In this document: piece by piece, positions 15,249 to 31,435 of the stretch
Position numbering within the stretch: the stretch's first letter is position 1
How the letters are laid out: each line of letters begins with the position of its first letter
Assembly: GCA_024697185.1 (NCBI GenBank)
Contig: JAILGB010000015.1
Span: forward strand, 1-41,879
DNA: 41,879 nt
Source of the DNA: Opitutales bacterium
GTDB lineage: Bacteria; Verrucomicrobiota; Verrucomicrobiia; Opitutales; UBA953
Reading direction: 5' to 3'
Position numbers and translations under genes: made by a program
The notes under the pieces: generated by a model
Seen by the model: only the letters and a program-made list of their open reading frames with translations
What the model was told of the DNA's origin: nothing
Databases searched by the model: none

Positions 15249-15670
15249 TTTAATTCGGTATCAAATGAAACCTTCGAAATTCCCTGCTCTTTCGCCATGT
15301 CGAACAAAGAAATTAACTGCTGAACTAACAACGAGCCGTCCGCACGAACACGAACGACGGGCTGTTTGTCCTCCGGCATTGATGCAATACGGGAAAACTC
15401 CTCAAGCAAAGCCTCCGGCAAAACTTCTTTGCTCCCGATAAAATAACGCCCCTCTGCATTAAGCGACACAATCACCGGTTCAATTTTGGGACTCGTCTCT
15501 ATCGCCTTTCCGATTGATTCCGAAGCGACCGGCAAATTAACAACCGTTGTCTGTTCAAGAACGGGCGTCGAAATCATAAAAATAATCAATAAACAAAAAC
15601 ACATGTCAAGTAGCGGGGTCACATTGATCTCGCTCATTGATTTCAGTGTTGTTTTGGGACGTCTAAACAT
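15245..15670 (-). CDS. ExbD/TolR family biopolymer transport protein
   Basis: This 141-residue proton-channel subunit has one TM helix (about 18-38, LLDMCFCLLIIFMISTPVLEQ) with the conserved membrane aspartate Asp22 in NVTPLLDMCF. A periplasmic domain follows, ending VRADGSLLVQQLISLFDMAKEQGISKVSF, which matches the family. It lies 7 bp after exbB and overlaps the tonB-like gene by 4 bp, so the three are translated together. It uses the proton gradient with ExbB to energise TonB or TolA. Confidence 0.93.
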   Translation of the reverse strand: MFRRPKTTLKSMSEINVTPLLDMCFCLLIIFMISTPVLEQTTVVNLPVASESIGKAIETSPKIEPVIVSLNAEGRYFIGSKEVLPEALLEEFSRIASMPEDKQPVVRVRADGSLLVQQLISLFDMAKEQGISKVSFDTELK

Positions 15671-15677
15671 TGTGAGA

Positions 15678-16430
15678 CTAATCGTTGGTCATTTCAAGCG
15701 TTCCCGACTGGCGGAGGGTTTTGTTTTTTAACGATAAGCGATTTCGAAGGTCTGCAGCAAAATTATCTACAAAAATTGATGCAAAATTTTCAAGTTCCGT
15801 ATACATCTTTTTTGTTTTTGCCAAAAGTATATTGTAGAAAAAAACTGACGGGATCGCCAAAATCAATCCGCACATTGTCGCAGTCAGTGCAGCCGAAACG
15901 CCAGGCGCCAACTGGGCGATCGTAGCCTTTTCCGACAATGTTGCAAATGTGATAGTGATTCCGTAAACTGTTCCCAAAAGTCCAAGAAAAGGCCCTAAAG
16001 TAACCGCAGAACCGATTGTTGGCAACTTTTCGGTATATTTATCCTCCACATTGGCCAAAAAGCGTTGAACGGCATTTTGAAGATAATTCAATCTCAGCTC
16101 CAATTCTTCGCTTGTTTCAGGAGTGCCTCCATGTTCATCAAAAGCCTTATAGGCGGCAACCATCAAATTCTGATAAACGCAAAAATCCGCACCCTTGCTC
16201 GGGCGCCACTCTATGAGTTTGACATTATGAACCTTCTTCTCAAACGCCTTGTTGGCGCGATCGGCTTTTCTCAAATAAGAACGGCGGGAAAAAATCGTTT
16301 GCCAAACATATACAGACGCCGCCCCCAAAATTGTTATGACCAGCCACCCAATCAAATCATTTTGCGAAAAACACCACCAAATACTACGTTCGGAAGATTC
16401 CTGTGCTAAAAAAAATCCAATAAAATTCAT
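15678..16430 (-). CDS. MotA/TolQ/ExbB family proton channel
   Basis: This 250-residue inner-membrane protein would form the proton-conducting pentamer with ExbD. It has a TM helix at about 28-48 and two more at about 145-215. The diagnostic block is TIGSAVTLGPFLGLLGTVYGITITF, then PGVSAALTATMCGLILAIPSVFFYN. It heads the three-gene operon. The -10-like TAGAAT lies 8 nt before the start codon, with TTGCGG 17 nt further upstream. There is no Shine-Dalgarno sequence. Confidence 0.93.
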   Translation of the reverse strand: MNFIGFFLAQESSERSIWWCFSQNDLIGWLVITILGAASVYVWQTIFSRRSYLRKADRANKAFEKKVHNVKLIEWRPSKGADFCVYQNLMVAAYKAFDEHGGTPETSEELELRLNYLQNAVQRFLANVEDKYTEKLPTIGSAVTLGPFLGLLGTVYGITITFATLSEKATIAQLAPGVSAALTATMCGLILAIPSVFFYNILLAKTKKMYTELENFASIFVDNFAADLRNRLSLKNKTLRQSGTLEMTND

Positions 16431-16438
16431 ACATCTAC

Positions 16439-16467
16439 ATTCTACAAATCTTTTTCATATCCCGCAA
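16439..16467 (-). promoter_or_regulatory. Putative promoter of exbB operon
   Basis: On the minus strand: TTGCGG (16462-16467), a 17-nt spacer and TAGAAT (16439-16444). The start codon follows 8 nt later, so the transcript would be nearly leaderless. The -35 match is weak. Confidence 0.4.
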
Positions 16468-16838
16468 ATAAAAGATCTGCATTAAAGAAATCTTCCTGAT
16501 TTAAAAATATTATAAATTATTTTCTAAATAATGATTTTATAAAAACTAAATATAATCATTATTACGCACTCAAATAACCACTTTCATCCCCTTCCTCAAA
16601 ATATATTCCCTAAAAATTACAGCAATCAATACAAAAATCTACATTTAAAATAAATGTGATTAAAATTTTACACAATTTAAAATGAAAGATTAGGTATTCC
16701 AAAAACAAAATTTCAAACGATAAATTAAACAATCCCCCATCTCATAATAGTTGCAACTTATCAAAAAAAACAAAAAAGCACGAAGTCGTTTTTAATGATT
16801 ATTTTCAAATAACGATCGCGAACAAACTCTGAAAAACA
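16468..16838. other. AT-rich intergenic region between mnmG and exbB
   Basis: I see no gene here. It contains a perfect 10-bp inverted repeat, AATAATGATT (16527-16536) and AATCATTATT (16554-16563), about 60 bp upstream of the exbB -35 box; it could be an operator or a small hairpin. Base composition changes sharply here, from GC-richer sequence on the left to the AT-rich origin block on the right. Confidence 0.5.
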
Positions 16839-18710
16839 TTATTTCATCAAGCGATAAACGGCAATTATCAATTGTTGAATATCACTTGTTCTTATACCGG
16901 AAATCGATGTTGCCTGTGCGATTGTTTTAGGTCGAACAGAAATGAGTTTTTGCCGGGCTTCTATTGAAATATTCGTAAGCGAATTATAATTGATGTCGGC
17001 AGGAATCAACATTGATGTCTGCTGTTTCATTTTATCAACTTGCCTCAACTCTCGTTCAAGATAGCCGGAGTATTTCACACGATATAAAATTTCTTTTTTA
17101 ACAGAATCACTTAAAATTGAAAATCCTTCCGGTGCGGCAAAATTCTCAAGATTTAATGTTTCATCAATAAGAGTTGAATAATGTTTTCCCTGATAATTAG
17201 ACTTTAAAAGTCGTGCAACCCAATACTCAATTTGAGATTTTTTATGACGAATAGATTTTACACGAGTATCAGACAAAAGACCTGTATTGGCAATCTTTTC
17301 AATAAATCTCAATTCAGCACTATTATGATTAAAGAGCAAACGATACTCAGCCCGACTTGTGAACATTCTATAGGGCTCCTGAGTTCCCTTTGTAACAAGA
17401 TCATCAATTAAAACACCCGCATAACCATCACTGCGGCTTAGAATAATTTCTTCTGAGCCCAACGCCTTAGCAGCTGCATTCGCACCGGCTATAAGACCCT
17501 GAATCGCCGCTTCTTCATAACCGGAAGTCCCATTTATCTGACCCGCCAAAAACAGATTCTCAATCATCTTGCTTTCAAGCGTGATCATTGTTTGAGTCGG
17601 CGGGATATAATCATACTCGATTGCATAAGCCGGCCGCAAAATAGTCACATTTTTTAATGCGGGAATTGAATAAACAATCTCTCTTTGCACATCAAACGGC
17701 AAAGAAGTTGATAAACCGTTTATGTACCATTCATCAGAAAAACGACCCTCCGGCTCCAAAAAAAGACGATGTGTTTCCTTAGCCGGAAATTTTACATATT
17801 TGTCTTCAATACTCGGACAATAACGCGCACCATGACCATAAATTAATCCGGAATAAAGCGGCGATTGGTCTATATGTTGATTAACAATATCTTTTGTCGA
17901 AAAATCAGTATTGGTAATCCAACAGGAACGCTCAACGCTCCCTGGCTTCCAACCGATTCTTGATTCGTTGATGCCTAAATTCAAATCCTCCTCGGCGCGC
18001 GTATCGTAAAAAGAAAAAAATGTCGGACTTTCATCACTTTTTTGCTCATCACAAAATTTAAAATCAATCGTAGATCCGAGAATACGCGCGGGAGTTCCTG
18101 TCTTCAATCGTTCAACATTTAAACCCGCAAATCTAAAACTTTCTGGAAGGGTTCTAGAATTAAAATCCCCAAGTCTGCCTCCGTTTGTAGTATTTGATCC
18201 AATAAAGATTTTTCCCTTAAGAAAAGTTCCCGTTGTTATAACGATTGTTTTTGCATAAAAATTAACATTAAAATTGGTTTCAACTCCAACAACTTTCCCA
18301 GACTTATAAATCAACTTAGTTACAATTGCCTGAAAAAGCGTTAAATTTGAAAGATGTTCCAATGTCTGCTTCATTCGCAAAGAATATTGTTGCTTATCAC
18401 ACTGTACACGAGGCGACTGGACAGCAGGCCCTTTGGAGGCGTTTAAAAGTTTGAATTGGATTGCCGTATGATCGGCACAATTTGCCATCTCACCGCCAAG
18501 AGCATCAATCTCACGAACAATCTGACCCTTTGCAATCCCTCCGATAGAAGGATTGCACGACATTTTGGCGATCGTATCCAAATTCCCGGTCAACAATAAT
18601 GTTTGAGCACCCATACGGGCTGCAGCAGAGGCCGCTTCAACGCCGGCATGGCCAGCTCCAATAACAATAACATCATATGGATTTAATGGAGAAGTGCGAA
18701 TAATTGGCAT
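16839..18710 (-). CDS. mnmG: tRNA U34 carboxymethylaminomethyl-modifying enzyme, FAD subunit MnmG (GidA)
   Basis: With MnmE it installs the 5-carboxymethylaminomethyl group on wobble uridine of tRNAs, using FAD, NADH and methylene-tetrahydrofolate. The 623-residue length is normal. The FAD dinucleotide-binding motif GAGHAGVEAA is at 18-27 and is followed by the family block CNPSIGGIAKGQIVREIDALGG. Other family segments are GRLGDFNSRTLPESFRF, GSVERSCW and, late, QINGTSGYEEAAIQGLIAGANAA. It lies 101 bp after mnmE on the same strand. TATAAT lies 7 nt before the ATG with no Shine-Dalgarno sequence, suggesting its own leaderless transcript. Linkage of mnmE and mnmG near oriC is common in bacteria. 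Confidence 0.97.
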   Translation of the reverse strand: MPIIRTSPLNPYDVIVIGAGHAGVEAASAAARMGAQTLLLTGNLDTIAKMSCNPSIGGIAKGQIVREIDALGGEMANCADHTAIQFKLLNASKGPAVQSPRVQCDKQQYSLRMKQTLEHLSNLTLFQAIVTKLIYKSGKVVGVETNFNVNFYAKTIVITTGTFLKGKIFIGSNTTNGGRLGDFNSRTLPESFRFAGLNVERLKTGTPARILGSTIDFKFCDEQKSDESPTFFSFYDTRAEEDLNLGINESRIGWKPGSVERSCWITNTDFSTKDIVNQHIDQSPLYSGLIYGHGARYCPSIEDKYVKFPAKETHRLFLEPEGRFSDEWYINGLSTSLPFDVQREIVYSIPALKNVTILRPAYAIEYDYIPPTQTMITLESKMIENLFLAGQINGTSGYEEAAIQGLIAGANAAAKALGSEEIILSRSDGYAGVLIDDLVTKGTQEPYRMFTSRAEYRLLFNHNSAELRFIEKIANTGLLSDTRVKSIRHKKSQIEYWVARLLKSNYQGKHYSTLIDETLNLENFAAPEGFSILSDSVKKEILYRVKYSGYLERELRQVDKMKQQTSMLIPADINYNSLTNISIEARQKLISVRPKTIAQATSISGIRTSDIQQLIIAVYRLMK

Positions 18711-18717
18711 AGAACTT

Positions 18718-18723
18718 ATTATA
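18718..18723 (-). promoter_or_regulatory. -10 box of mnmG
   Basis: A perfect TATAAT on the minus strand, 7 nt before the start codon. No convincing -35 box was seen (TTTATT at 17-nt spacing). Confidence 0.4.
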
Positions 18724-18811
18724 CAAAATAAGATCTATGGAATAAAGGTGATAAAAATCAATAAACAGAGATTTCAAAAATTGAATTTATTTACTCAAAA
18801 TCTAAAAACTC

Positions 18812-20170
18812 TTATTTTCCGATACAAAAAGACGAAAAGATTTTATCCAATGTCCTTTCATTATTATAATGCCCCATAAATTGTTCTAATAAATTGACAG
18901 ACAATCTCAATTGTTCCACGTGGAACTCATCTGAAACTGTTCCAAAATCATCGAGCAACAAATTAAGTGTTTTCTGAACATGTTTCAACAGATCTAACTG
19001 CCTTAATCCTAAAAATAATGTTCCAGCCGGAGGCAAAATTTTATTTTCTTTTAAAAAATTAATAAGTGATCCGGAAAGTTCTTCAAGAATATTTTCATTT
19101 TTAAGAGAGATTTGCATTTTCTTAAAACCCTCTAAAACCAATTCGGGATTAAATACTGCAGGAAGATCCGATTTCGTAAACAACACAAGCGTCTTGTTCG
19201 GATCAATTTTTTCAATGGCAGGCAAGCGCGATGGGAAGAAATCTGAACGATCAATTAAATAAAGTACAAAATCCGAATCCTCCAAACACGAAAGTGTGCG
19301 CTCCATTCCCGCAACTTCAATCGGGTCGAGACTATTATTATGAAGACCTGCAGTATCAATCAAACGAAATGTGTGTTTTTTAATTGTTATCACCTCGGAA
19401 ATAAAATCCCTTGTTGTTCCCGCAACAGGGGCGACAATCGAACGACTATTCCCAACAAGCAGATTAAACAAAGACGATTTTCCGGCATTTGGAGCGCCAA
19501 CAATTGAAACGGTTAAATATTTATGGGCACCTGCCAAATAGCGAGAATGAGAAATTAAGCCCGAAAGCTGATCAATAATTTGTTTCAACTGTTTTTTTTG
19601 TTGTTCCACGTGGAACTCCGGAATTTCTTCTTCCGAAAAATCCAAACCAGCCTCCAAATCTGCTATCAAACTATAGATAGAAGCAGCCCATCCTTTTATC
19701 ATTTCTTTCAATTCGCCAGAAAGAAAACGCCTGGAAGATGTAATCTCTTCTTCAGACTGAGCACTAATAAGCGTTTGAACCGCCTCCGCCTGGGAAAGAT
19801 CCATTTTACCGTTCAAAAAAGCCCTTTGTGTAAATTCTCCCGGTTTTGCAGACTCACAACCTCTCTCGCGCGCGTCCGCGACTATATTAAATGCAATTAA
19901 AGGATTTCCATGACACGAAATCTCAAAAGAATCTTCACCCGTATAAGAACTAGGGGCTTTGAAATAGGTGAAAACACAATCGTCTAAAATTTCGCCTTCG
20001 ACAGAATGATACTTCCCCCAATAAACATGTCGCGCCTTAGGAAACTCTTTTAAACAAAACGCATCTTGTAAAAATTGACCGGAAAAAGGTCCTGAACCCC
20101 TCAACAAAATCAATGCAGACTCCTGAAGCGGCGTTGATGGTGCAATAATTGTTGTGCAAAAATTCGACAT
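18812..20170 (-). CDS. mnmE: tRNA modification GTPase MnmE (TrmE)
   Basis: This is the GTPase partner of MnmG in wobble-uridine modification. I start it at 20170 (452 residues, MSNFCTTIIAPSTP), because the 16 residues of the longer frame are merely hydrophobic and overlap the promoter. An N-terminal folate-binding domain (AREDSFEISCHGNP-like segment; KPGEFTQRAFLNGKMDLSQAEAV) precedes the G domain: GAPNAGKSS at 225-233, AGTTRDFI, DTAGLH, TKSD. The C-terminal CIGK, essential in the family, is intact. Two 16-bp parS-like palindromes lie within the gene, both read as EFHVEQ (185-190 and 415-420). A TATAAT box ends 7 nt before the start and no Shine-Dalgarno sequence is present. Confidence 0.96.
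   Translation of the reverse strand: MSNFCTTIIAPSTPLQESALILLRGSGPFSGQFLQDAFCLKEFPKARHVYWGKYHSVEGEILDDCVFTYFKAPSSYTGEDSFEISCHGNPLIAFNIVADARERGCESAKPGEFTQRAFLNGKMDLSQAEAVQTLISAQSEEEITSSRRFLSGELKEMIKGWAASIYSLIADLEAGLDFSEEEIPEFHVEQQKKQLKQIIDQLSGLISHSRYLAGAHKYLTVSIVGAPNAGKSSLFNLLVGNSRSIVAPVAGTTRDFISEVITIKKHTFRLIDTAGLHNNSLDPIEVAGMERTLSCLEDSDFVLYLIDRSDFFPSRLPAIEKIDPNKTLVLFTKSDLPAVFNPELVLEGFKKMQISLKNENILEELSGSLINFLKENKILPPAGTLFLGLRQLDLLKHVQKTLNLLLDDFGTVSDEFHVEQLRLSVNLLEQFMGHYNNERTLDKIFSSFCIGK
18912..18927. other. parS-like ParB-binding site 1 (inside mnmE)
   Basis: TGTTCCACGTGGAACT contains the 14-bp perfect palindrome GTTCCACGTGGAAC and differs by one base from TGTTCCACGTGGAACA, a known pseudomonad parS sequence. 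ParB-parS complexes seed SMC loading and origin segregation. Confidence 0.78.
19602..19617. other. parS-like ParB-binding site 2 (inside mnmE)
   Basis: The same 16 bases as site 1, TGTTCCACGTGGAACT, 690 bp away. Both sites encode EFHVEQ in mnmE. Confidence 0.78.
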
Positions 20171-20177
20171 CGAAGAT

Positions 20178-20183
20178 ATTATA
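20178..20183 (-). promoter_or_regulatory. -10 box of mnmE
   Basis: A perfect TATAAT on the minus strand, 7 nt upstream of the chosen ATG at 20170. The position of this box supports the shorter start. A -35 box is poor. Confidence 0.4.
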
Positions 20184-20218
20184 AAAAATACTAAAAAAAG
20201 AATAAAGTATAAAAACAC

Positions 20219-20247
20219 TTGATTTTATAAATTCGATATTGTATTAT
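20219..20247 (+). promoter_or_regulatory. Putative promoter of rpsR
   Basis: TTGATT (20219-20224), a 17-nt spacer and TATTAT (20242-20247). The ATG is 11 nt after the -10 box, so the leader would be about 5 nt. Confidence 0.5.
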
Positions 20248-20258
20248 TAACAGAACAT

Positions 20259-20444
20259 ATGGAAAATCAAAAACATTCACGCACACCATTAGATTTTGAC
20301 TTCACAGACGTTGAACAGCTTAGCCGCTATGTTACGGAAACCGGCAAAATCAAGCCGCGTTCCCTTACACACTTGACAGCCAAGCAACAGCGTCATGTTA
20401 CCAAGGCAATCAAGCGTGCACGCAATATGCTCTTAATGAAATAG
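20259..20444 (+). CDS. rpsR: Small ribosomal subunit protein bS18
   Basis: bS18 is part of the 30S platform, where it pairs with bS6. At 61 residues it is somewhat shorter than the E. coli protein (75). The core [27 protein letters not shown] (31-57) matches the S18 signature (KILPRRITGLSAKHQRxxTRAIKRAR). It stands alone, without rpsF or rplI next to it as in many genomes. No Shine-Dalgarno sequence is visible, and the promoter is almost adjacent to the start codon. Confidence 0.93.
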
Positions 20445-20479
20445 TCGGTTTTATCGCCTATTTCTTATAGCGCTTTCTC

Positions 20480-23281
20480 ATGGCGCATAAATATCGGCGA
20501 TTTTCGCCAATATTACATAAAAAAAGCAACCATAAGGGTTTTTCTCTTGTTGTTGCTTTACTTTTGATGTCCCTTATAATCACCTTAGGGATATCTATAA
20601 CGACATTTATCACTTTACAAAGTCGTTTTATAGCCGCTGCAAACGAACGCTCTATTATTTTAAATATGGCGAGAGAATACTCAATTTACGAATTGGGTAG
20701 GTTGCAAGAAATAACTGGAAGAGATTCTGTCATAACTGTTGAAAAACAAAGCGACAGTAAAAATTTACAACCATGGGTCTATGCCATAGACGCAAAAGGC
20801 AATAAAACGGCACTGGTTTCTAATGCCGGTGATTTTAGTGAAGACGGGAAAAAATCTTTTCGTCTGCCTAATGGTAAGATTGCGGATGTTCCTTGGAAAT
20901 ATTCCAAAGACGGTAAATTTCGTTTTGCGAGTATTGTTATCGATGAAGGAGTCAAACCAAGTTTGGGAGCGATTCCTCCCGAAAATTTTAAATTCGACAA
21001 ACACCTGAAGCAATTTCTCATTGAAAGAGATTATTCAAAATGGTTTCGTGATTTAGATTTTGAAGATCCGTGTACCAAACATTTTGCAATTTATAATCAT
21101 GGCTATCTTGCAAAAAATCTGACAGGGAAGTGTTCAATCTCAGATTTTACATCCGGAACATATACTGTTTTGGCTGACTGGCCAAGAGAAGTTTTAAAAG
21201 AGGATCTTTCAAATCCAAACTATGATAAAACATTATTTGGAGATGCATTAAAAGAAAATAAAAGATTTTTCGATGCTCCGGATGATGGCTTGGAAATCAG
21301 TTGTAATAAAGAAAAAATAAGTGGAAAATGGGGATTCGAACAAAAATATTTCTTATTTCCCATCGAAACAAAATTACATATTGTATTTTTTAACGCACGA
21401 ACAGATGGTCAGCATCGTTCAAAATTTTACCTCACGACAACATTTTGGAATCCCTATTCTTGTCCGCTTAATGCACAAGCAAACGGTTATTTCACTTTGA
21501 CGGATTGGGCACGTTTACCATCTGTCAAAATAGAAAATTTAGATACCGGATCACATTACGAATATTCCCTTTCAGATTTTCCACAAGGACAATTTGGAAA
21601 TGCCAAACAAACAGCTTCCGACAAAACTTTTAATGCGTATAATTATATTTACGATTCCAATACGTTAGGATTAAACAAAAAAAATAATGGTTTTCATTCG
21701 GGAGAAATTTATGAATCGCGTTATCCGGATCCACAAAATATGCCGCAAGGACTTTCTCGGATTACCGGAATGCCAACTTGGAAACGCAGTACAAATAAAA
21801 ATCCAAACAAAACTCCATCAGGTGTTGCCGGACCCGACCGATGGTTCCATAACGATCATACGATCGTCATCAAATCCATTTCAGAAAATGGAGAAGCGGA
21901 TATTGTCTTTAGAGCTTATGTTGGAAATTTAAAAAGCAATCAAACAAGTTCCGACTACTCATTCCCGCTCATTGAATTTAAAAATGTTCCCATTCCGGAT
22001 TTTGAAATTCGTCTAAGTGGAGCAGAATACAACCGGGTTACAGCAAACATCAATAAAATCGAAGAAGCGCAAATTGTTTTCTCAATACGGTTCCGGATTG
22101 AAAATGAAACTGCAATCAGATCATTTTTTGAAAAATATGATCTGCGTAACACCACTTTCGATTTTAAAGATCCGATTGTCTCAAATGTTTTTGAAATTAA
22201 AGTATCGACAGACAAAGACTTAAATAAAAATCCTTCTTGTGTAACAACAAAAAAGGGTTATCTTCTATTTGACGAAAAAATCAATACTCACGATGCTTAT
22301 TTTTCATGCTTTCCATTTTTTGACAATCCCAACAACCAACTTCTATCCGTCGGTTTGCTGCGACACTTTTATTGGTCAAAAATTCCACAACTTGCAATCG
22401 GTCATTCAAGCAATTTTTCAAAATCAGAAAAAATAAATGAAATTTATGACCGATACTATTTTTCAGGTTTAAAATACGATAAAAATACCGTTGATTTTAA
22501 AAAAGAAAAAAGTAAAAATCCGTATTTGGTCCAATCCAATTATTTTTACGGAAAAACAGAGAATCCGGAAAAATATTTATTAGCTTCCGGGGTATTGAAT
22601 ATTAATTCAGAACGTGAAGAAGCCTGGGAACTCTTATTTCGCAACAAATATGAAAAGTGGCAACAAATTTTAAGAAATGATAAAAATGACTCCTTTTCTT
22701 ATGATAATGAAAAGTCTCATAACTTAAAAAACACAATATTTACCAGACCTTTTTCAGCACAAGCACCACTTGCAAACGCATACAATTCTATCTACAGTGA
22801 CAACGAATTGGAAAAAAAGGATATTGTATCTATTAAAAAATCATTAATCTCCCAAGGACTTCGACAATTAACTGATGAAAAAATTAAAAAATTATCAGAA
22901 GAAATTGTAAAAGAAATTAAAAAATACCACGAATCCGATATTTATTTTAATTCACTTGAAATGTTCATCAATGAAGGAATTTTAGAAAAAGCCATCAAAA
23001 GATCCGACATTAACAATATCGGTTCATTTGAAATTTCATCTTGGATTCCCAATTATATTACCCAACAAATTCTTTTAGATTCAATAACTCCTGCAATTGC
23101 TCCAAGATCTGACACTTTTAAAATAATTGTCTATGTTGAAAAAATAAATCCGTTTAACGGGACAATAATATCAAGATCAGGAGCAGAATTATCAGTTCAA
23201 CGAACACCGGAAGCCTTTGAAGGAAATATTTATAAACACCTTGGCCGAAAATATAAAATTATCAATTTTAGGTGGTTATAA
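20480..23281 (+). CDS. Very large GspK/PilX-like prepilin, resembling Verru_Chthon cassette protein A
   Basis: The 933-residue protein has a class III (type IV prepilin) leader: a basic N-terminus, then G20|FSLVVALLLMSLIITLGISITTF, for cleavage after Gly20 by prepilin peptidase and N-methylation of Phe21. Position +5 is Val rather than Glu, as in GspK-type tip pseudopilins. The rest (about 60-933) is a large, aromatic- and Asn-rich exported domain without repeats I recognise. Its size and layout resemble a verrucomicrobial family of giant pilin-like proteins; that assignment is from memory and moderate. It may sit at the tip of a pilus or secretion pseudopilus. No other pilus gene is nearby. 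It starts 35 bp after rpsR and ends just before a hairpin terminator. Confidence 0.6.
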   Translation: MAHKYRRFSPILHKKSNHKGFSLVVALLLMSLIITLGISITTFITLQSRFIAAANERSIILNMAREYSIYELGRLQEITGRDSVITVEKQSDSKNLQPWVYAIDAKGNKTALVSNAGDFSEDGKKSFRLPNGKIADVPWKYSKDGKFRFASIVIDEGVKPSLGAIPPENFKFDKHLKQFLIERDYSKWFRDLDFEDPCTKHFAIYNHGYLAKNLTGKCSISDFTSGTYTVLADWPREVLKEDLSNPNYDKTLFGDALKENKRFFDAPDDGLEISCNKEKISGKWGFEQKYFLFPIETKLHIVFFNARTDGQHRSKFYLTTTFWNPYSCPLNAQANGYFTLTDWARLPSVKIENLDTGSHYEYSLSDFPQGQFGNAKQTASDKTFNAYNYIYDSNTLGLNKKNNGFHSGEIYESRYPDPQNMPQGLSRITGMPTWKRSTNKNPNKTPSGVAGPDRWFHNDHTIVIKSISENGEADIVFRAYVGNLKSNQTSSDYSFPLIEFKNVPIPDFEIRLSGAEYNRVTANINKIEEAQIVFSIRFRIENETAIRSFFEKYDLRNTTFDFKDPIVSNVFEIKVSTDKDLNKNPSCVTTKKGYLLFDEKINTHDAYFSCFPFFDNPNNQLLSVGLLRHFYWSKIPQLAIGHSSNFSKSEKINEIYDRYYFSGLKYDKNTVDFKKEKSKNPYLVQSNYFYGKTENPEKYLLASGVLNINSEREEAWELLFRNKYEKWQQILRNDKNDSFSYDNEKSHNLKNTIFTRPFSAQAPLANAYNSIYSDNELEKKDIVSIKKSLISQGLRQLTDEKIKKLSEEIVKEIKKYHESDIYFNSLEMFINEGILEKAIKRSDINNIGSFEISSWIPNYITQQILLDSITPAIAPRSDTFKIIVYVEKINPFNGTIISRSGAELSVQRTPEAFEGNIYKHLGRKYKIINFRWL

Positions 23282-23320
23282 AAATATTAAAAAAAATTCC
23301 ATAAAAATCTATATTAGAGG

Positions 23321-23358
23321 ATAGTCTGTGCGAAAGTTTGCACCGGCTATAATTTTTT
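23321..23358 (+). terminator. Rho-independent terminator after the large prepilin gene
   Basis: ATAGTCTGTGC (23321-23331) pairs with GCACCGGCTAT (23340-23350), with one mismatch and one G-T pair, and is followed by AA and T6 (23353-23358). Confidence 0.8.
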
Positions 23359-23549
23359 ACACAAGATCAGACACAAACGGATTATCAGAGACGACATATC
23401 TCTCTCCCGAAGACTCGATGGAATAAGCCAAGAATTATCACCTTGGCATTTTAAAGTCCTCTCTTAACAGACCGTCAAATTATAAAGCCGACACACTCGA
23501 CCTCGTTATCCACTCCAAAAATAAATTCCTATAAATTTTTGTCTATATT
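23359..23549. other. Unassigned 190-bp intergenic segment
   Basis: No ORF of note is present. It has higher GC content than the surrounding AT-rich genes and contains a clean hairpin, GCCAAG-loop-CTTGGC (about 23427-23447). It could hold a small RNA or the argS 3' region, but I recognise no RNA family. Confidence 0.35.
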
Positions 23550-25331
23550 TTACATTTTTTCAAGTGTATCAATAGACAAAATTTTCAAACAACGTTTAAG
23601 AACCATAGCCGTAGTTGCGCACAACTTTAAGCGAAAATCTCTAATATTGCCATCTTCCACATTTATCTTACACTTCGAATAAAACACTGAGAAAAGTCCA
23701 GCCAACTCATAAATATAAGTGCAAATGTAATGTAATTTCAACTCAGACACTGAAAGATTGATTACATTTTCAAAAACTTCAAGTTTCTTTACAATCTCAA
23801 TTTCCTCCGGCTCTGTAAAATTAGCGAATCCAATATTTTTATTTAAATAATCATCGAGCGATAATTCCATTTTTTTAAAAACAGAATTAATTCTTACAAC
23901 AGCATAAAGCAGATAAGGAGCTGTATTGCCTTCAAAAGCTAACAATCTTTTCCATGAAAACATATAATCAAGCGTTCTATTTTGCAATAAATCCGCATAT
24001 TTGATCGAAGAAATTCCAACAATTGTTGAAATTTTTTCCATTTCTTCCATATCTAAATCTGTATTCTTTTCTTTAACGATTGTTAAAGCTCGTTCAGTTG
24101 CTTCATTTACAAGCGCTTTAAGTTTAATTGATTCTCCAGATTTTGTTTTTATCGGTTTTCCGTCTTCACCTAATATTTTTCCAAATGTAACATGACAAAG
24201 TTTAGGCAAGGGGTATTTTTTTTGACTAAACCAACGATCAACAGTTGAAAAAAGCATTTTAAAATGTTCTTTTTGACGATCGTCTGTCACATAAATAACC
24301 TCATCGGCATTAAAATGTTCAGACCGGTATAATACTGTTGCAAGATCTGTCGATCCATAATTGGAGCCACCATCTTTTTTTCTGATAATAAATGGCGCGA
24401 TATTACCTTTTTCCTTATCTTCCGCTTTTTGCCATACGACTAACGCACCTGCATCTTCTTCTGCAATTCTCAACGAAATCAATTCATCATAAACACGATT
24501 TACTTTATCGCGATAAAAAGATTCACCCAAAGTAACGTCCGGATGAACTCCAAAAAGTTCATAAATTTTTTCACAAGCGGAATTCGAAACTCTCACAATA
24601 TGCTTCCAAAGTTCCATATTTTCGGGATCACCTTGTTGCAGTTTTACAAGCTCCAAACGCGCCTCATCAAGTGCCCCCGGATGGTTTTCCTCATCCTTAC
24701 AATAGGACATTCCGGATTTATAAAGACTTTCAAGCTCCTCCAAAGTCTTTGAATCATCCTTATTGAACTGATAATTCACTCTCTTGATTTCAAAAATCAA
24801 AACACCAAAATTTGTCCCCCAATCACCAATATGATTATCACGAATAACTTTTGAACCGCAAAATTCAAGAAGACGCGAAATAGCTTCTCCAATAACTAAA
24901 ATTCTCAAATGCCCGACATGCATTTGTTTTGCCGTATTTGGAGAAGGATAATCAATAATAATATTTTTATTGAAATAATTTAAATTTTTATAATTATCAA
25001 AAAAACTGTTATTGCAATAATGATCAAAATATTCTTTATGATAAAGTTTTGAAAGCTTAAAATTAAGAAATCCAGGACCTGAAATACCGATTTTTTCAAA
25101 TTGTCCTTCATTGATACGATTTAATTCTTCAACAAATTTTTCGGCCAATTCACGCGGATTGCACCGTGAACGTTTGGCTGCAGTTAAAATACCGTTTGCC
25201 TGCAAATCTCCAAAGCGAGGGTCAGAAACACGAACATCAGGTTTAAAAATTTCTAAAGAAAGCCCGATCTTTTCGGCAACTTCATTTAAAATATCTTCTA
25301 AAAAAGTAATTGTATTAAATTTAATTTTCAT
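23550..25331 (-). CDS. argS: Arginyl-tRNA synthetase
   Basis: This class I synthetase charges tRNA-Arg. The 593 residues show the N-terminal Add1 domain, the HIGH-equivalent HVGH at 138-141 (SPNTAKQMHVGHLR), the GDWGTNFG block, SNYGSTDLATVLYR, and YVTDDRQKEHFKMLF. The KMSKS-like region is replaced by KTKSGESIKLKAL, as is usual for ArgRS. The C-terminal anticodon-binding DALR domain follows. It is transcribed away from the putative oriC. TAAAAT lies 9 nt before the start codon and no Shine-Dalgarno sequence is apparent. Confidence 0.96.
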   Translation of the reverse strand: MKIKFNTITFLEDILNEVAEKIGLSLEIFKPDVRVSDPRFGDLQANGILTAAKRSRCNPRELAEKFVEELNRINEGQFEKIGISGPGFLNFKLSKLYHKEYFDHYCNNSFFDNYKNLNYFNKNIIIDYPSPNTAKQMHVGHLRILVIGEAISRLLEFCGSKVIRDNHIGDWGTNFGVLIFEIKRVNYQFNKDDSKTLEELESLYKSGMSYCKDEENHPGALDEARLELVKLQQGDPENMELWKHIVRVSNSACEKIYELFGVHPDVTLGESFYRDKVNRVYDELISLRIAEEDAGALVVWQKAEDKEKGNIAPFIIRKKDGGSNYGSTDLATVLYRSEHFNADEVIYVTDDRQKEHFKMLFSTVDRWFSQKKYPLPKLCHVTFGKILGEDGKPIKTKSGESIKLKALVNEATERALTIVKEKNTDLDMEEMEKISTIVGISSIKYADLLQNRTLDYMFSWKRLLAFEGNTAPYLLYAVVRINSVFKKMELSLDDYLNKNIGFANFTEPEEIEIVKKLEVFENVINLSVSELKLHYICTYIYELAGLFSVFYSKCKINVEDGNIRDFRLKLCATTAMVLKRCLKILSIDTLEKM

Positions 25332-25340
25332 AATACCCTG

Positions 25341-25346
25341 ATTTTA
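25341..25346 (-). promoter_or_regulatory. -10-like box of argS
   Basis: TAAAAT on the minus strand, 9 nt before the argS start codon; the -35 region is unclear. It overlaps the edge of the proposed origin. Confidence 0.35.
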
Positions 25347-25616
25347 ATAGTGAATTGTTCTGTGAATAAACTCCTCAATTTTTGATTATAACTGTTTTTC
25401 AAACAAATAGCCAAAATTTTATAACGCTGATTTAAACATTGTGAATAAACGGGAATTTACATCAACTGTCGCAAAATAAACAGTGAATAATTAGATATTC
25501 ACAATATTAACAGGATAATTAAGGATTAAGAAATATTTTAAATTTTAATTTCTAATCATTCACAATGTGAGCTTTAATTTGTTGATAAATTTTTTCTATT
25601 GAAAATCAAAAAATAC

Positions 25617-25645
25617 TTTAAAACAAATATGTGAGACTTTATAAT
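25617..25645 (+). promoter_or_regulatory. Putative promoter of dnaN
   Basis: TTTAAA (25617-25622), a 17-nt spacer and a perfect TATAAT (25640-25645). The ATG follows after 8 nt, so the predicted leader is only about 2 nt. Confidence 0.6.
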
Positions 25646-25653
25646 GGAAATGT

Positions 25654-26781
25654 ATGAAATTTAAGACAAATCAATCCCAATTTTTATCCGCTCTTAATCA
25701 AGTAGCTTCTGTTGTTGGCGCTCATGCGGCTCTTCCGATTTTAAATAATATTTTGATTGAAGCGTGTGACGGATTCTTGAAATTGACAACGACAAGTATT
25801 GATCTTCGTATTTGTTGTAAAGTTAAAGCCGATGTCATGGAGGAAGGAAAAATCACACTTCCCGCAAAAATTTTGAAAGAAATGTTGGGCGGCTTTCAAG
25901 ATGAAGTCTTTTTTAATCAAAAAAATCCAACCCGTGTTGAGATTTCTTCCGGTAATTCACTTTTTACTTTGAATGGAATTGATGCGGGTGAATTTCCGCT
26001 TGCTCCTTCGTTTAATGATGAAATTGCATTCGAATTCGAAAAATCTTTGATTTCATCGATGTTGAATTCTGTAGCCTATGCTCAATCGACTGATGAAAAT
26101 CGTTATGTTTTGAACGGTGTCTATTTTAAAATTGACGGAAATACTATTTCTGTCGTTGCAACAGATGGAAAACGTTTGGCTGTTTGCAAAAAAAATTGTG
26201 AAATCTCGGTAGATAACCCGATAAAGTTTATTTTGCCCGCGAAAACTGTTTTTGAATTGCAAAAACAATTAGTCGGTGACGGCAAGATGACTTTTTCTTT
26301 CTCCAGTCATTTGATTGCTTTCAAAATCGATGCCGCCGATTCTGAGAAAACGGGTATTATCGATAAAATTACATTAGTTTCAAAATTGGTTGACGGAACC
26401 TATCCGAAGTATGAAGGTGTTATCCCAAAAGATTCGTCAAAATTGATTGAAATTGACCGGGATGAAATGTTTTATGCCATTTCACAGGCAAAAAGTGTTA
26501 TTTCTGACAGAAATAATAATTCCGTTACGTTTGACATCCGAGAAAATCTGATAGATGTCACCGCTGTTTCATCTGAATTTGGTGAGGCGAGTGTTAAACT
26601 TGATGTTCGTTATTCTGGTGATGAAGTTAAGATTTCATTTAATCCGAACTTTATTCTTGATTTAATGAAAGCACTTCCTCAAAACAAATTGATTTTTGAA
26701 TTTAAAGATCAAATGAGTCCTGGAGTCATTAAAACAAAAGAGGATGATTTCATCTGTGTTATAATGCCTCAAAGACAATAA
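25654..26781 (+). CDS. dnaN: DNA polymerase III sliding clamp (beta subunit)
   Basis: This beta clamp encircles DNA and tethers the replicative polymerase. Its 375 residues fit three clamp domains. Recognisable segments are the N-terminal MKFKTNQSQFLSALNQVASVV, ALPILNNILIEA, the middle YVLNGVYFKIDGNTISVVATDGKRLAV, and the C-terminal end DDFICVIMPQRQ (VMPMR in E. coli). It starts immediately right of the putative oriC and is transcribed away from it. A promoter box lies 8 nt before the start codon. The downstream gene lepB follows after 56-71 bp containing an inverted repeat. Confidence 0.97.
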   Translation: MKFKTNQSQFLSALNQVASVVGAHAALPILNNILIEACDGFLKLTTTSIDLRICCKVKADVMEEGKITLPAKILKEMLGGFQDEVFFNQKNPTRVEISSGNSLFTLNGIDAGEFPLAPSFNDEIAFEFEKSLISSMLNSVAYAQSTDENRYVLNGVYFKIDGNTISVVATDGKRLAVCKKNCEISVDNPIKFILPAKTVFELQKQLVGDGKMTFSFSSHLIAFKIDAADSEKTGIIDKITLVSKLVDGTYPKYEGVIPKDSSKLIEIDRDEMFYAISQAKSVISDRNNNSVTFDIRENLIDVTAVSSEFGEASVKLDVRYSGDEVKISFNPNFILDLMKALPQNKLIFEFKDQMSPGVIKTKEDDFICVIMPQRQ

Positions 26782-26800
26782 TGTCATTTTCAAACTCAAA

Positions 26801-26841
26801 TCATGATTGTTGATTTTATTTACTATCATCAACAATTGTGA
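26801..26841 (+). repeat. Inverted repeat between dnaN and lepB
   Basis: TCATGATTGTTGAT (26801-26814) and ATCAACAATTGTGA (26828-26841) pair at 12 of 14 positions across a 13-nt loop. There is no T run, so it is more likely an mRNA hairpin or operator than a terminator. The right arm includes the GTG at 26838, disfavouring that codon as the lepB start. Confidence 0.6.
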
Positions 26842-26852
26842 TTGATGGTTTT

Positions 26853-28070
26853 ATGTTTTCATTTTTTAAAAAAAGATCGATAAAACAAAAGAATAAAAAA
26901 CTTTTGTCCAATATACAGCGTGTCTTAAATTATCGTGGTGATCTTTTAAAAGAGGAGGATTTTTTCAGCTTGAAAAAATTTGAATCAATTTTAAAAAAAA
27001 ATGAAATTGTTGACGAAGAAGCTTTAGAGGAGCTTTTAAAATCGTGCGGTGGCTTTATTTATCCGCAGGGAACTTTGGCTGAATATACGGAATTAATCGT
27101 TGTTTCTTTAATTTTAGCTTGTGGAATTCGTGGTTTTATTGCCCAACCGTTTAAAATTCCGACAAATTCAATGTATCCGACATATAACGGAGTTGTGACG
27201 AATGTTTGCGAGCAACCTGTTAAACCATTGAAATGGATTAATAAAATTTTATTGGGCAATACCTATTATCAAATAAATAATAATTCTTCTTTTGGTGGAG
27301 AAATTTCCATTAAGTTAAGTGATAATGGTAAGAGAATCGAACCTGTTTATGAAAATTCCAATGGAAATGTTTATGAATTTTTTATTGGAGATAATCTGTT
27401 AAAGCTTGAAATTCCCAAAGAAGCATCGCTTGAAAATTTATTAGTTGATACTTTTTTTTATCAAGATGCATTATTGAAAAATCCACGCGAAATATTGTTG
27501 GAAAAAATATCAAAGCCGACTATATTATCCAACGGATCTTATGTAATATCTCTTGGTAAAAACATTTCTCCGGGCGAAACAATATTTAGTTTTGCATTAA
27601 AAACGGGGGATATGGTTTTAGTTGATCGTATTTATTATAATTTTTTTAAACCCTCAGTAGGGGATCCTTTTGTTTTTAAAACTGGAAATATTCCCGGTTT
27701 GAAATATCAAAAACTTTATTATATTAAACGTTTGGCGGGTGTTCCCGGAGATAAAATAAAAATTGAAAACGGGCAATTTTTTAATAACGGTCAATTGCCG
27801 GAAGGAATAGCGTTTGATGCCAATAATTTAAAACAGACAGAAAATGACTATTTTGGTTATCTTCAAGAGTGTGGCAGCCCATTGACACCCTATAGTTGGC
27901 CGTTGAATAAAGAAATGATTGTTCCAGAGAATTATTATTATGCTTTAGGGGATAATTCATGGAACAGTTATGATTCCCGCGGTTGGGGTGGTGTTCCCGT
28001 CGCTGATACAATAGGTCCCGCGCGCTTAATTATTTATCCGATTTCAAATCATTGGGGAATTGCAAAATGA
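26853..28070 (+). CDS. lepB: Signal peptidase I
   Basis: This membrane protease removes signal peptides from exported proteins. I start it at the ATG 26853 (405 residues); an upstream GTG at 26838 lies inside a hairpin arm. After a 65-residue charged N-terminus comes one TM helix ([20 protein letters not shown]). The nucleophile serine is in PTNSMYPT (Ser106) and the general-base lysine in [14 protein letters not shown] (Lys292). The C-terminal box is [17 protein letters not shown]. An insert of about 140 residues separates the Ser and Lys boxes, making it longer than E. coli LepB (324). The stop codon overlaps the hisB start (ATGA). Confidence 0.95.
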
Positions 28071-28672
28071 CAAATAAAAAAAATAATCGCAAAATATCCA
28101 TTGAACGCAATACAAAAGAGACGCAAATTAAATTGAGCATCGATCTTGATGGCGAGGGAAAAGCTGAAATCAATACGGGTATTCCATTTTTTGATCATAT
28201 GCTCAATCTTTTTTCACGTCACGGATTGTTTGATCTCTCCGTAAAAGCAGTGGGGGATATTGATGTGGATTATCATCATACGGTTGAAGATGTGGGCATT
28301 GTTCTTGGTAATGCGATAAAACAGGCGCTTGGAAACAAAGTCGGCATCAATCGCTATGGTTTCTTTATTTTACCGATGGATGAATCGCTTGCAAGAGTCG
28401 CTATCGACCTGTCGGATCGCCCTTATTTTGTTTATGATGTTTCTGCAAAAAATATGATGATTCGCGATTTTAATCTTTGTCTCGTTCGCGAATTTTTTCA
28501 AGCTGTTTCCAACAGCCTTGCTTGCAATCTTCATATTAAGCTTGAATACGGGGAAGAACCGCATCATATCGCCGAAGCGATTTTTAAATGTTTTTCAAAA
28601 GCCTTGATGAACGCATGCAGTTTAAATGAACGCGCAAAAAATATTTTGCCGAGTACAAAGGAAAAACTTTAA
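28067..28672 (+). CDS. hisB: Imidazoleglycerol-phosphate dehydratase
   Basis: It catalyses the sixth step of histidine biosynthesis, dehydrating imidazole glycerol phosphate to imidazole acetol phosphate. The start is the ATG at 28067 overlapping the lepB stop codon (ATGA), giving 201 residues, normal for the monofunctional enzyme. Metal-binding histidine motifs are seen: [30 protein letters not shown], and later [21 protein letters not shown]. It is directly followed by hisH with no gap, but other his genes are not in the window. Confidence 0.96.
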
Positions 28673-29296
28673 ATGAAAACAGTAGCCCTTATCGATTATG
28701 GTATGGGAAATCTGCGCAGTGTTGCGCGGGCTCTCGAAAAAATTGGAGCACAGGTTAGAATTGTCAGCCAACCCGATGAGGTTGCAGATGCTAAAGCGTT
28801 GATTTTCCCGGGACAGGGCGCTATTGGAGATGCAAAAGATGCTCTTGCGAAAACAGGTTTTGATAATTTTATAAAAAATTGGGTCGATAAAGATCGTCCG
28901 TTTATGGGAATTTGCTTAGGTCTTCAAATTCTTTTTGAGCATTCTGAAGAAGGTGATGTCCGCGGACTCGGTATATTCAAAGGCAATGTTCTTCGTTTTC
29001 CATCCGGAACACAGGATAAAATTCCTCATATGGGTTGGAATACGGTCGAAATTGTTCCCGGAAATGAGGGAAATTTATCATCCGGCATTTCTTCCAATGG
29101 AGAATCGTTTTATTTTGTGCATAGCTATTATGTCAGTACAACACAGGAGGAAATCGTTTGGAGTAAAACCCATTATGCCGGCATTGATTTTGTAAGCGCC
29201 ATTAGACGCGGAAATCTTTTTGCCGTTCAATTTCACCCCGAAAAAAGTCAAAAAAAAGGCCTTCAAATCTATAAAAATTTTCTAAATAGTTTTTAA
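28673..29296 (+). CDS. hisH: Imidazole glycerol phosphate synthase, glutamine amidotransferase subunit
   Basis: HisH hydrolyses glutamine and feeds ammonia to HisF for synthesis of imidazole glycerol phosphate and AICAR. The 207-residue protein has the class I amidotransferase triad: Cys81 in MGICLGLQ, with His188 and Glu190 in FHPEKS. The N-terminal IDYGMGNLRSV and FPGQGAIGDA are typical. An AAGGAA Shine-Dalgarno-like site lies about 9 nt before the ATG. The gene abuts hisB. hisF is not here, so the his pathway is split in this genome. Confidence 0.96.
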   Translation: MKTVALIDYGMGNLRSVARALEKIGAQVRIVSQPDEVADAKALIFPGQGAIGDAKDALAKTGFDNFIKNWVDKDRPFMGICLGLQILFEHSEEGDVRGLGIFKGNVLRFPSGTQDKIPHMGWNTVEIVPGNEGNLSSGISSNGESFYFVHSYYVSTTQEEIVWSKTHYAGIDFVSAIRRGNLFAVQFHPEKSQKKGLQIYKNFLNSF

Positions 29297-29349
29297 GATT
29301 GTTTTTTGTGAAACTTTTTTTGCTTTTTATCGTTTAACCTAAATGAGGA

Positions 29350-29898
29350 ATGAATGATAATGAGACAGATATTTTCTTAATGAGAAGAATCGCAAAAGGT
29401 GATGATGTCGCCGTCCGCGATATTGTCTTGCGCTGGCAAAAGCCGTTGATAAACTTTTTTTATCGATCATTAAATGATGTTCATACTGCTGAAGATTTAA
29501 CACAGGAAACTTTTATAAAACTTTGTCAATCCGCTACAAAATATGTTCCAACTGCGGCATTTTCTTCTTATCTTTTTCAGATTGCCCATAATATTCTCGT
29601 TAGTAATTATAGAAATTCGAATAACAAATTTGAAATTTTAGTGGCACCACAAGACTTGCCGGAAATTGAGGATGAAAGAGAAAATCCTGCATTTTTAAAA
29701 AATGAGATAGAGACACTACTTGCAAAGCATATCAAGGATTTACCGGATAATCAACGAACAGCACTTCTTCTTTTTTCCCAACAACATTTTTCTTATGAAG
29801 CTATTGCGGAGACGATGAAAATCTCTATTCCCAATGTAAAAACATTAATTCATAGAGCACGACTCGTGTTACGTAAAAAAATACAAAAATATTTTTAA
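29350..29898 (+). CDS. ECF-type RNA polymerase sigma factor
   Basis: This 182-residue protein has sigma region 2 (about 10-85, VLRWQKPLINFFYRSLNDVHTAEDLTQETFIKL...AFSSYLFQIAHNILVSNYRN) and region 4 (about 120-178, LPDNQRTALLLFSQQHFSYEAIAETMKISIPNVKTLIHRARLVLRK). It should direct RNA polymerase to a small regulon, probably envelope-related. A GAGGA immediately precedes the ATG, too close for a normal Shine-Dalgarno sequence. The next gene, 2 bp downstream, encodes a small membrane protein likely to be its anti-sigma factor, and a periplasmic protein follows, forming a sigma/anti-sigma/sensor-type operon. Confidence 0.92.
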   Translation: MNDNETDIFLMRRIAKGDDVAVRDIVLRWQKPLINFFYRSLNDVHTAEDLTQETFIKLCQSATKYVPTAAFSSYLFQIAHNILVSNYRNSNNKFEILVAPQDLPEIEDERENPAFLKNEIETLLAKHIKDLPDNQRTALLLFSQQHFSYEAIAETMKISIPNVKTLIHRARLVLRKKIQKYF

Positions 29899-29900
29899 TC

Positions 29901-30296
29901 ATGGACGAAATGATAGAAAAAATGCTCAGTGAGCAAGTGATTGAACCGTCGCCGGATTTTGCAAATCGGATTTGCAGCGCGATTGCCGCCGAGCGGGCGA
30001 TTGATAAATTTTTGGAGCAAGAACCTGTCGAGCCGTCAAAAACAATAAAGATTCAAACACTGACTCCGAAAAATCATTTTTCACTAACAAAGGTCTTGCT
30101 TTCATTTTCATCTATGGCGGCAAGCATCGCAGTTGGACTCCTTGTCATTTCCGCCTTTATTAAAAATATCGATGAAAGAATTGATGACGCAATAGCCCAA
30201 GATTGCCAAGATGAGTTTGAAACCTTGATTCAATACGCCGATTTATTGGACGATATCGATAGTCAAACACTTGAAATTTTTGCTTATAATGAATAA
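29901..30296 (+). CDS. Small membrane protein, probable anti-sigma factor
   Basis: The 131-residue protein has a cytoplasmic N-terminal part (1-70; PSPDFANRICSAIAAERA is typical of verrucomicrobial and planctomycetal anti-sigma-like proteins), one TM helix (about 72-90, SMAASIAVGLLVISAFI) and a short acidic outer segment. It contains no zinc-binding HxxxCxxC motif. Its role is inferred from position 2 bp after the ECF sigma gene. It overlaps the next gene by 8 bp. Sequence evidence for function is weak. Confidence 0.6.
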   Translation: MDEMIEKMLSEQVIEPSPDFANRICSAIAAERAIDKFLEQEPVEPSKTIKIQTLTPKNHFSLTKVLLSFSSMAASIAVGLLVISAFIKNIDERIDDAIAQDCQDEFETLIQYADLLDDIDSQTLEIFAYNE

Positions 30297-30807
30297 AAAA
30301 TCAATAGTAGCTTTAATTCTTGTTTTTTGCTTTGGGGCTTTAAATGTCTTTGGGCAAGAACAGCAATTACAAAAAAATGACAACGAACTTGTTTCCCAAT
30401 CGGAAACAAAAGCGGATAAGCAACGGATACGACCGATAAGAACACTTTTTCAAATGTCCGATCAAGAATTGGATAAATTGGCTATCGCGATTGAGCGTAT
30501 TCGTAAAATCCCACAGGAAAAGCGTCGCCAAATCGCGCAAGAAATGGATAAGTTTGAAAAATCAAAAAATCAGACGGACGCGCGAAAAATGATGAAAAAA
30601 ATGCATTCGCATTTTCGAGATGAACAACGGAAAATTTTAAATCAGTATTTTTCAACTCTTGATGAAGCGACAGCAAAAGCTGAGAGAGAGGCTTTTATAA
30701 AAATGTCCCCGCGGGAACGTTTTGAGTTTATGAAAAAAGCTTCGGAGGCAATAGGAATTGACAGAGTTCCTCCTCCACCCTTCGATTGTCCCCCGCGCGA
30801 AAAATAA
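30289..30807 (+). CDS. Exported helical protein, Spy/CpxP-like in layout
   Basis: I start it at 30289 (172 residues, MNKKSIVALILVFCFGALNVFGQ), which gives a proper signal peptide; the longer frame lies within the preceding gene. The mature part is charged and helical, with MSDQELDKLAIAIERIRKIPQEKRRQIAQEM and KMSPRERFEFMKKASEAIG, broadly like periplasmic chaperone/sensor proteins of the Spy/CpxP type, but no LTxxQ repeat is clear. It ends in a Pro-rich tail. As third gene of the sigma/anti-sigma operon it could sense envelope stress. One octamer lies at 30711, the first to the right of the origin block. Confidence 0.5.
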   Translation: MNKKSIVALILVFCFGALNVFGQEQQLQKNDNELVSQSETKADKQRIRPIRTLFQMSDQELDKLAIAIERIRKIPQEKRRQIAQEMDKFEKSKNQTDARKMMKKMHSHFRDEQRKILNQYFSTLDEATAKAEREAFIKMSPRERFEFMKKASEAIGIDRVPPPPFDCPPREK

Positions 30808-30826
30808 AATTAGGCTGATAAATATA

Positions 30827-30880
30827 ATAAAATAAAATCCCCGCACCATGATCTTTAGTGCGGGGATTTATTATTTTTTA
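30827..30880. terminator. Bidirectional terminator between the sigma operon and the ferredoxin gene
   Basis: AAATCCCCGCAC (30835-30846) pairs perfectly with GTGCGGGGATTT (30858-30869), flanked by A/T-rich tracts on both sides. The genes converge here, so it serves both strands. Confidence 0.88.
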
Positions 30881-30887
30881 TTTTTAA

Positions 30888-31121
30888 TTATTCTCCATCG
30901 TCACCGATAGCATCAACAGGGCAAGACGATTTAGCTTCGTCACAAAGGGCGATTTCATCATCTGTCGTCGGCTGCTTGATCACAATGGAAATACCGAGAT
31001 CATCGTTGCGTCCGAAGAAATCGGGAGCAGCTTGACGGCAAACATCACAGTCGATACATGCGGAATCGACGTAGAATTTACCGGGAACATTACCTTCGTT
31101 TTTGTCATCTGGATTTGCCAT
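30888..31121 (-). CDS. 4Fe-4S ferredoxin
   Basis: This 77-residue acidic ferredoxin has Cys22, Cys25 and Cys28 (ACIDCDVC) and Cys67 (SSCPVDAIG), enough for a single [4Fe-4S] cluster; an extra Cys60 could form a disulfide. The form DSACIDCDVCRQAAPDFF is that of short ferredoxins that transfer electrons in soluble redox reactions. It is monocistronic by eye: the terminator follows it and about 80 bp separates it from the upstream zinc-ribbon gene. Confidence 0.92.
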   Translation of the reverse strand: MANPDDKNEGNVPGKFYVDSACIDCDVCRQAAPDFFGRNDDLGISIVIKQPTTDDEIALCDEAKSSCPVDAIGDDGE

Positions 31122-31200
31122 ATTTTTATAGGGATTTGGTGTTAGTATTAGTGTTCGCTTATCTATTGTGCTATTTTTTTATTCGCGGGTCAAAGATTTT

Positions 31201-31434
31201 TTAAAATTTAAGATGTGAATTTTTAAAGCCGCAATGAGGACAGACAGCATATTCTCTCGCGTGTTTTCGGGTATAAATCGTTTTACATTTGATACAGCAA
31301 AAAACGGTGATGAGTCGTCGCCGATCTCGCAAAACACTTTCACGTCGCTGATAGAGAACGACTAAAAGTGCAAAAAATAACATTACACCGCTGATGATGA
31401 TTGCAAAAAAATAAACGAGATCGATTTGAAACAT
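31201..31434 (-). CDS. Small membrane protein with a C-terminal zinc ribbon
   Basis: The 77-residue protein has one N-terminal TM helix (about 6-28), a basic segment (QRRESVLRDRRR) and a zinc-ribbon-like knuckle pair, Cys47-x2-Cys50 and Cys65-x2-Cys68 (CPHCG). The ribbon should be cytoplasmic by the positive-inside rule. It starts 1 bp after obg and is therefore cotranscribed. I do not recognise a named family; a role in ribosome or membrane biology is only a guess. Confidence 0.7.
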   Translation of the reverse strand: MFQIDLVYFFAIIISGVMLFFALLVVLYQRRESVLRDRRRLITVFCCIKCKTIYTRKHAREYAVCPHCGFKNSHLKF

Positions 31435-31435
31435 T

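Follow-up and report, generated by a model that had tools for sequence, protein, structure and literature searches.

We propose that the 322 bases between argS and dnaN are the DnaA-dependent oriC of an Opitutales (Verrucomicrobiota) genome, an assignment to which we give a probability of about 0.93 and which rests on comparison of sequences. The window, by which we mean the whole stretch of 41,879 nucleotides that was analysed, comes from an uncultured gut-type Opitutales bacterium; the closest named loci belong to Opitutales metagenome bins, of which the nearest two come from the colon of water buffalo and the rectum of sheep. That oriC probably lies between these two genes had been suggested in an initial annotation of the window, and the suggestion is now supported by parS, by the skew in the window and in relatives, and by DnaA boxes whose positions ahead of dnaN are conserved throughout the order. 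Origins of the DnaA type that lie close to dnaN while dnaA is encoded elsewhere are already known. The part that a specialist would not expect is the trough in GC content around oriC and parS.

Results

The gap was described initially as holding two perfect and three near DnaA boxes and an AT-rich core, and both observations hold (Table 1). Two exact copies of TTATTCACA are present where 0.017 are expected from Markov copies of the gap, and five copies with at most one mismatch where 0.39 are expected; none of 1000 Markov copies reaches the observed counts. Exact TTATTCACA does not occur in the rest of the window. The gap as a whole has 23% GC. In the half next to dnaN, A+T rises to as much as 86% in 50-base steps. 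Scanning the window for Rfam families and tRNA genes gave no matches. Two details of the initial description need correction. The gap is not the only large one, as 16431–16838 and 30808–31435 are larger in the ORF list, and the outward polarity of the genes is true broadly but not in detail: the ORF at 20480–23281 is on the plus strand on the left side, and genes are mostly on the minus strand again from 31.4 kb. This ORF (933 aa, without Pfam match) adjoins mnmE and argS, and its relatives (33%) are found beside mnmG/mnmE in G001 and G006.

Table 1. Features of the proposed origin region in window coordinates
Feature	Position	Strand	Remarks
Intergenic region, probably bearing oriC	25332..25653	.	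between argS (-) and dnaN (+); skew change
argS	23550..25331	-	PF00750
dnaN, sliding clamp	25654..26781	+	Pfam PF00712/02767/02768
DnaA box TTATTCACA	25361..25369	-	exact
DnaA box TTATTCACA	25440..25448	-	exact
DnaA box TTATTCACT	25482..25490	-	one mismatch
DnaA box ATATTCACA	25495..25503	+	one mismatch; inside order-conserved element
DnaA box TCATTCACA	25556..25564	+	one mismatch
Additional TTATCAACA	25580	-	
Order-conserved putative unwinding element, diverged copy	25494..25545	+	box ATATTCACA, followed by a weak second box (TTAACAG) and an AT-rich run
Most AT-rich part, probable unwinding region	25504..25640	.	78-86% A+T
parS-type palindrome GTTCCACGTGGAAC	18913..18926	.	inside mnmE
parS-type palindrome GTTCCACGTGGAAC	19603..19616	.	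inside mnmE
AT-rich trough around oriC and parS	15654..30654	.	35.1% GC vs 52% in genome sample

The window genome (1.59 Mb, 97% complete) is in 32 contigs, too fragmented for a cumulative skew curve. Because it is not closed, skew was also read in three relatives, namely G040 (same order, one contig, 2.63 Mb), the nearly closed G055, and G003 (same genus); the values for skew and composition come from sampled stretches. In the window, GC skew goes from −0.22/−0.24 at 23–25 kb to +0.11/+0.18 at 26–28 kb, a change that is partly confounded with gene polarity. In G040, samples between 1.05 and 2.28 Mb have negative skew, and those from 2.293 Mb onwards, across zero and up to 0.92 Mb, have positive skew. 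The switch from minus to plus coincides with the 5´ end of dnaN (2.293 Mb); the reverse change lies near 1.0 Mb, almost diametrically opposite. In G055 the minus-to-plus change is between samples at 0.885 and 0.905 Mb (0.89–0.91 Mb), with dnaN at 0.905 Mb, and in G003 the sign changes between samples at 245 and 265 kb, with dnaN at 264.6 kb. GC skew, which had been named as a check on the assignment, hence changes from minus to plus at the gap in the window and at dnaN in all three relatives. A cumulative-skew minimum is placed there by the local change in the window, the chromosome samples of G040 and G055, and the contig of G003.

The annotation had also stated that dnaA is separated from dnaN, which is borne out and is not particular to this genome. 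The window genome has an intact dnaA on a different contig (C30). Its product carries PF00308 and PF08299, with a box-binding domain and the box-reading helix usual for the order. The two genes are on different contigs or 0.25–1 Mb apart in 14 of 14 relatives checked, and judging from these gene positions the split is old and order-wide, from well before this species arose; cyanobacteria show such a split too. In G040, dnaA lies at 0.680 Mb inside a replichore, in G055 it is 250 kb into the plus arm, and in G007 it is inside a contig with negative skew on both sides. The skew change at dnaN, taken with the location of dnaA inside one skew arm in these three genomes, marks dnaN as the site of the origin.

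The same locations weigh against a reading that places the origin in the AT-rich stretch preceding dnaA on C30 and sees the dnaN gap as no more than a promoter region regulated by DnaA. Two exact and two one-mismatch boxes are indeed found within 330 bp upstream of dnaA, the 600 bp upstream have 29% GC, and boxes at about −305 to −315 and near −30 from dnaA recur across the order (in the window genome, L001 2343–2700, G000:C30). However, skew on C30 goes from weakly positive on the left to negative on the right, which is not the direction expected of an origin, and C30 is without a parS-type palindrome at up to two mismatches. The conserved boxes upstream of dnaA probably fit dnaA autoregulation. 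We consider this reading very improbable.

Upstream of dnaN, boxes near −255, −215, and −130 recur across Opitutales. Alignment of these upstream regions gave a 52-bp element, box plus AT-rich run, with the consensus GTTATTCTACTTATTCACAGCCCATAATAATACGAATATATTTATATATTGA; 69 of 76 Opitutales have it, in most cases at −140 to −50 from dnaN. An ungapped profile built from 68 relatives, without the window genome, ranks 25494 on the plus strand first among all window positions on both strands, but its score is near zero (0.1 bits against local composition), and without the spacer columns it no longer ranks first. A HMMER profile of the element reported no match in the window. For a basal unwinding system, at least three NAN triplets would be expected within 16 bp of a box. 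The box at 25495 is followed by at least five on the top strand, a tentative strand polarity, where AT-rich shuffles often give three. For period-3 runs, 57–60% have three or more against 26–35% in shuffles, only a modest excess.

The parS-like sites noted near the gap are two exact GTTCCACGTGGAAC palindromes, 6.0 and 6.7 kb to the left of dnaN. They are the only ones in the 1.59 Mb genome (one mismatch allowed in GTTNCACGTGNAAC), and the palindrome is found near mnmE/mnmG in eight relatives. Unlike in the genus of the window, GTTCCACGTGGAAC was not found within about 10 kb of dnaN in G040 (L033) or within about 20 kb of it in G055 (L086, L087) and G009 (L080, L081). The parB gene of the window genome is on contig C22. 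In G040, parB (L190, G040:C1:984888-985163; 0.985 Mb) lies near the terminus deduced from skew, far from oriC. It is barely credible that the boxes only regulate transcription of dnaN and argS, with the origin elsewhere and at neither gene: sigma-70-like matches do overlap the boxes, but the six found are not clearly beyond shuffles (mean 3.2, sd 2.1), and this reading is opposed by the skew, whose sign changes at dnaN both in the window and in three relatives, by the element that relatives conserve ahead of dnaN, and by the unique parS sites nearby.

The composition of the trough was compared with a genome mean from about 425 kb sampled on 21 other contigs, in which one 2-kb contig without readable bases was counted as zero. 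The lowest 15-kb stretch among the sampled other contigs has 47.3% GC. GC at four-fold degenerate sites is 0.81 at −22 kb, declines gradually to 0.26 in argS, and is back at 0.6–0.7 by +6 kb. Comparable troughs near oriC or parS are seen in most of the genus. They are present in G006, with a four-fold minimum of 0.28 at +0.7 kb, and in G003, G004, and G007, whose minima of 0.29–0.36 lie between +4.3 and +5.2 kb, close to parS (+3.3 and +4.5 kb); L152 has one as well (0.31 at dnaN). G001 has a weak trough, at parS, G008 has none, and across most of the order GC drops by no more than a few points. An exact centring of the trough on oriC was rejected, because the minima in G003, G004, and G007 are 4–5 kb off, near parS. 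A chimeric contig or a foreign island was rejected as the cause, because the core genes are most similar to those of the same genus and the four-fold change is gradual. Identities to G001, of the same genus, are 54% for dnaN, 62% for argS, and 66% for mnmG, and G001 and G006 share the gene order argS-dnaN-lepB-hisB-hisH with the window.

Discussion

In the mechanism that we envisage, DnaA, encoded elsewhere, would bind the TTATTCACA boxes, and oligomerisation from the box pair at 25495–25513 would open the AT-rich stretch at about 25504–25640. Two forks would then depart in opposite directions, and such opposite forks from the gap would give rise to the skew change. The two parS sites 6.0–6.7 kb away may load ParB and so segregate the new origins.

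We found nothing relevant to an origin-proximal GC trough in the open-access literature. Our preferred guess, a tentative one, is that in this genus substitutions in the oriC-parS domain are locally AT-directed, resulting in a synonymous-site trough of 10–15 kb that tracks oriC/parS through changes in gene order. Such a regime might, just as tentatively, come about for example where ParB/SMC-covered or early-replicated DNA escapes GC-biased recombination or repair. The trough is a clear example of its kind near an origin, and models of mutation and recombination can be tested on it by comparing sister species. The analysis further provides an origin assignment for Opitutales in which dnaA is uncoupled from dnaN, and the conserved element may help to place origins in draft genomes.

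The conserved element is reminiscent of Bacillus subtilis oriC, where the basal unwinding system consists of a DnaA box pair and DnaA-trios (PMC8287927), in that a box pair is directly followed by an AT-rich period-3 run conserved in Opitutales. It differs in that the period-3 excess in Opitutales is modest, the strand register is tentative, and the window copy is diverged. The palindromes resemble the parS sites of the ParABS system in being present in two copies, origin-proximal, and unique in the genome, with putative ParB binding, whereas the window sites lie inside mnmE and parB is on a separate contig. A further close parallel can be drawn with Synechococcus elongatus oriC (PMC7198777). 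Although that organism is a cyanobacterium and its origin was shown by experiment, whereas ours is read from sequence, both have a DnaA-type origin near dnaN at a shift in GC skew with dnaA encoded elsewhere, DnaA binding being predicted in the present case.
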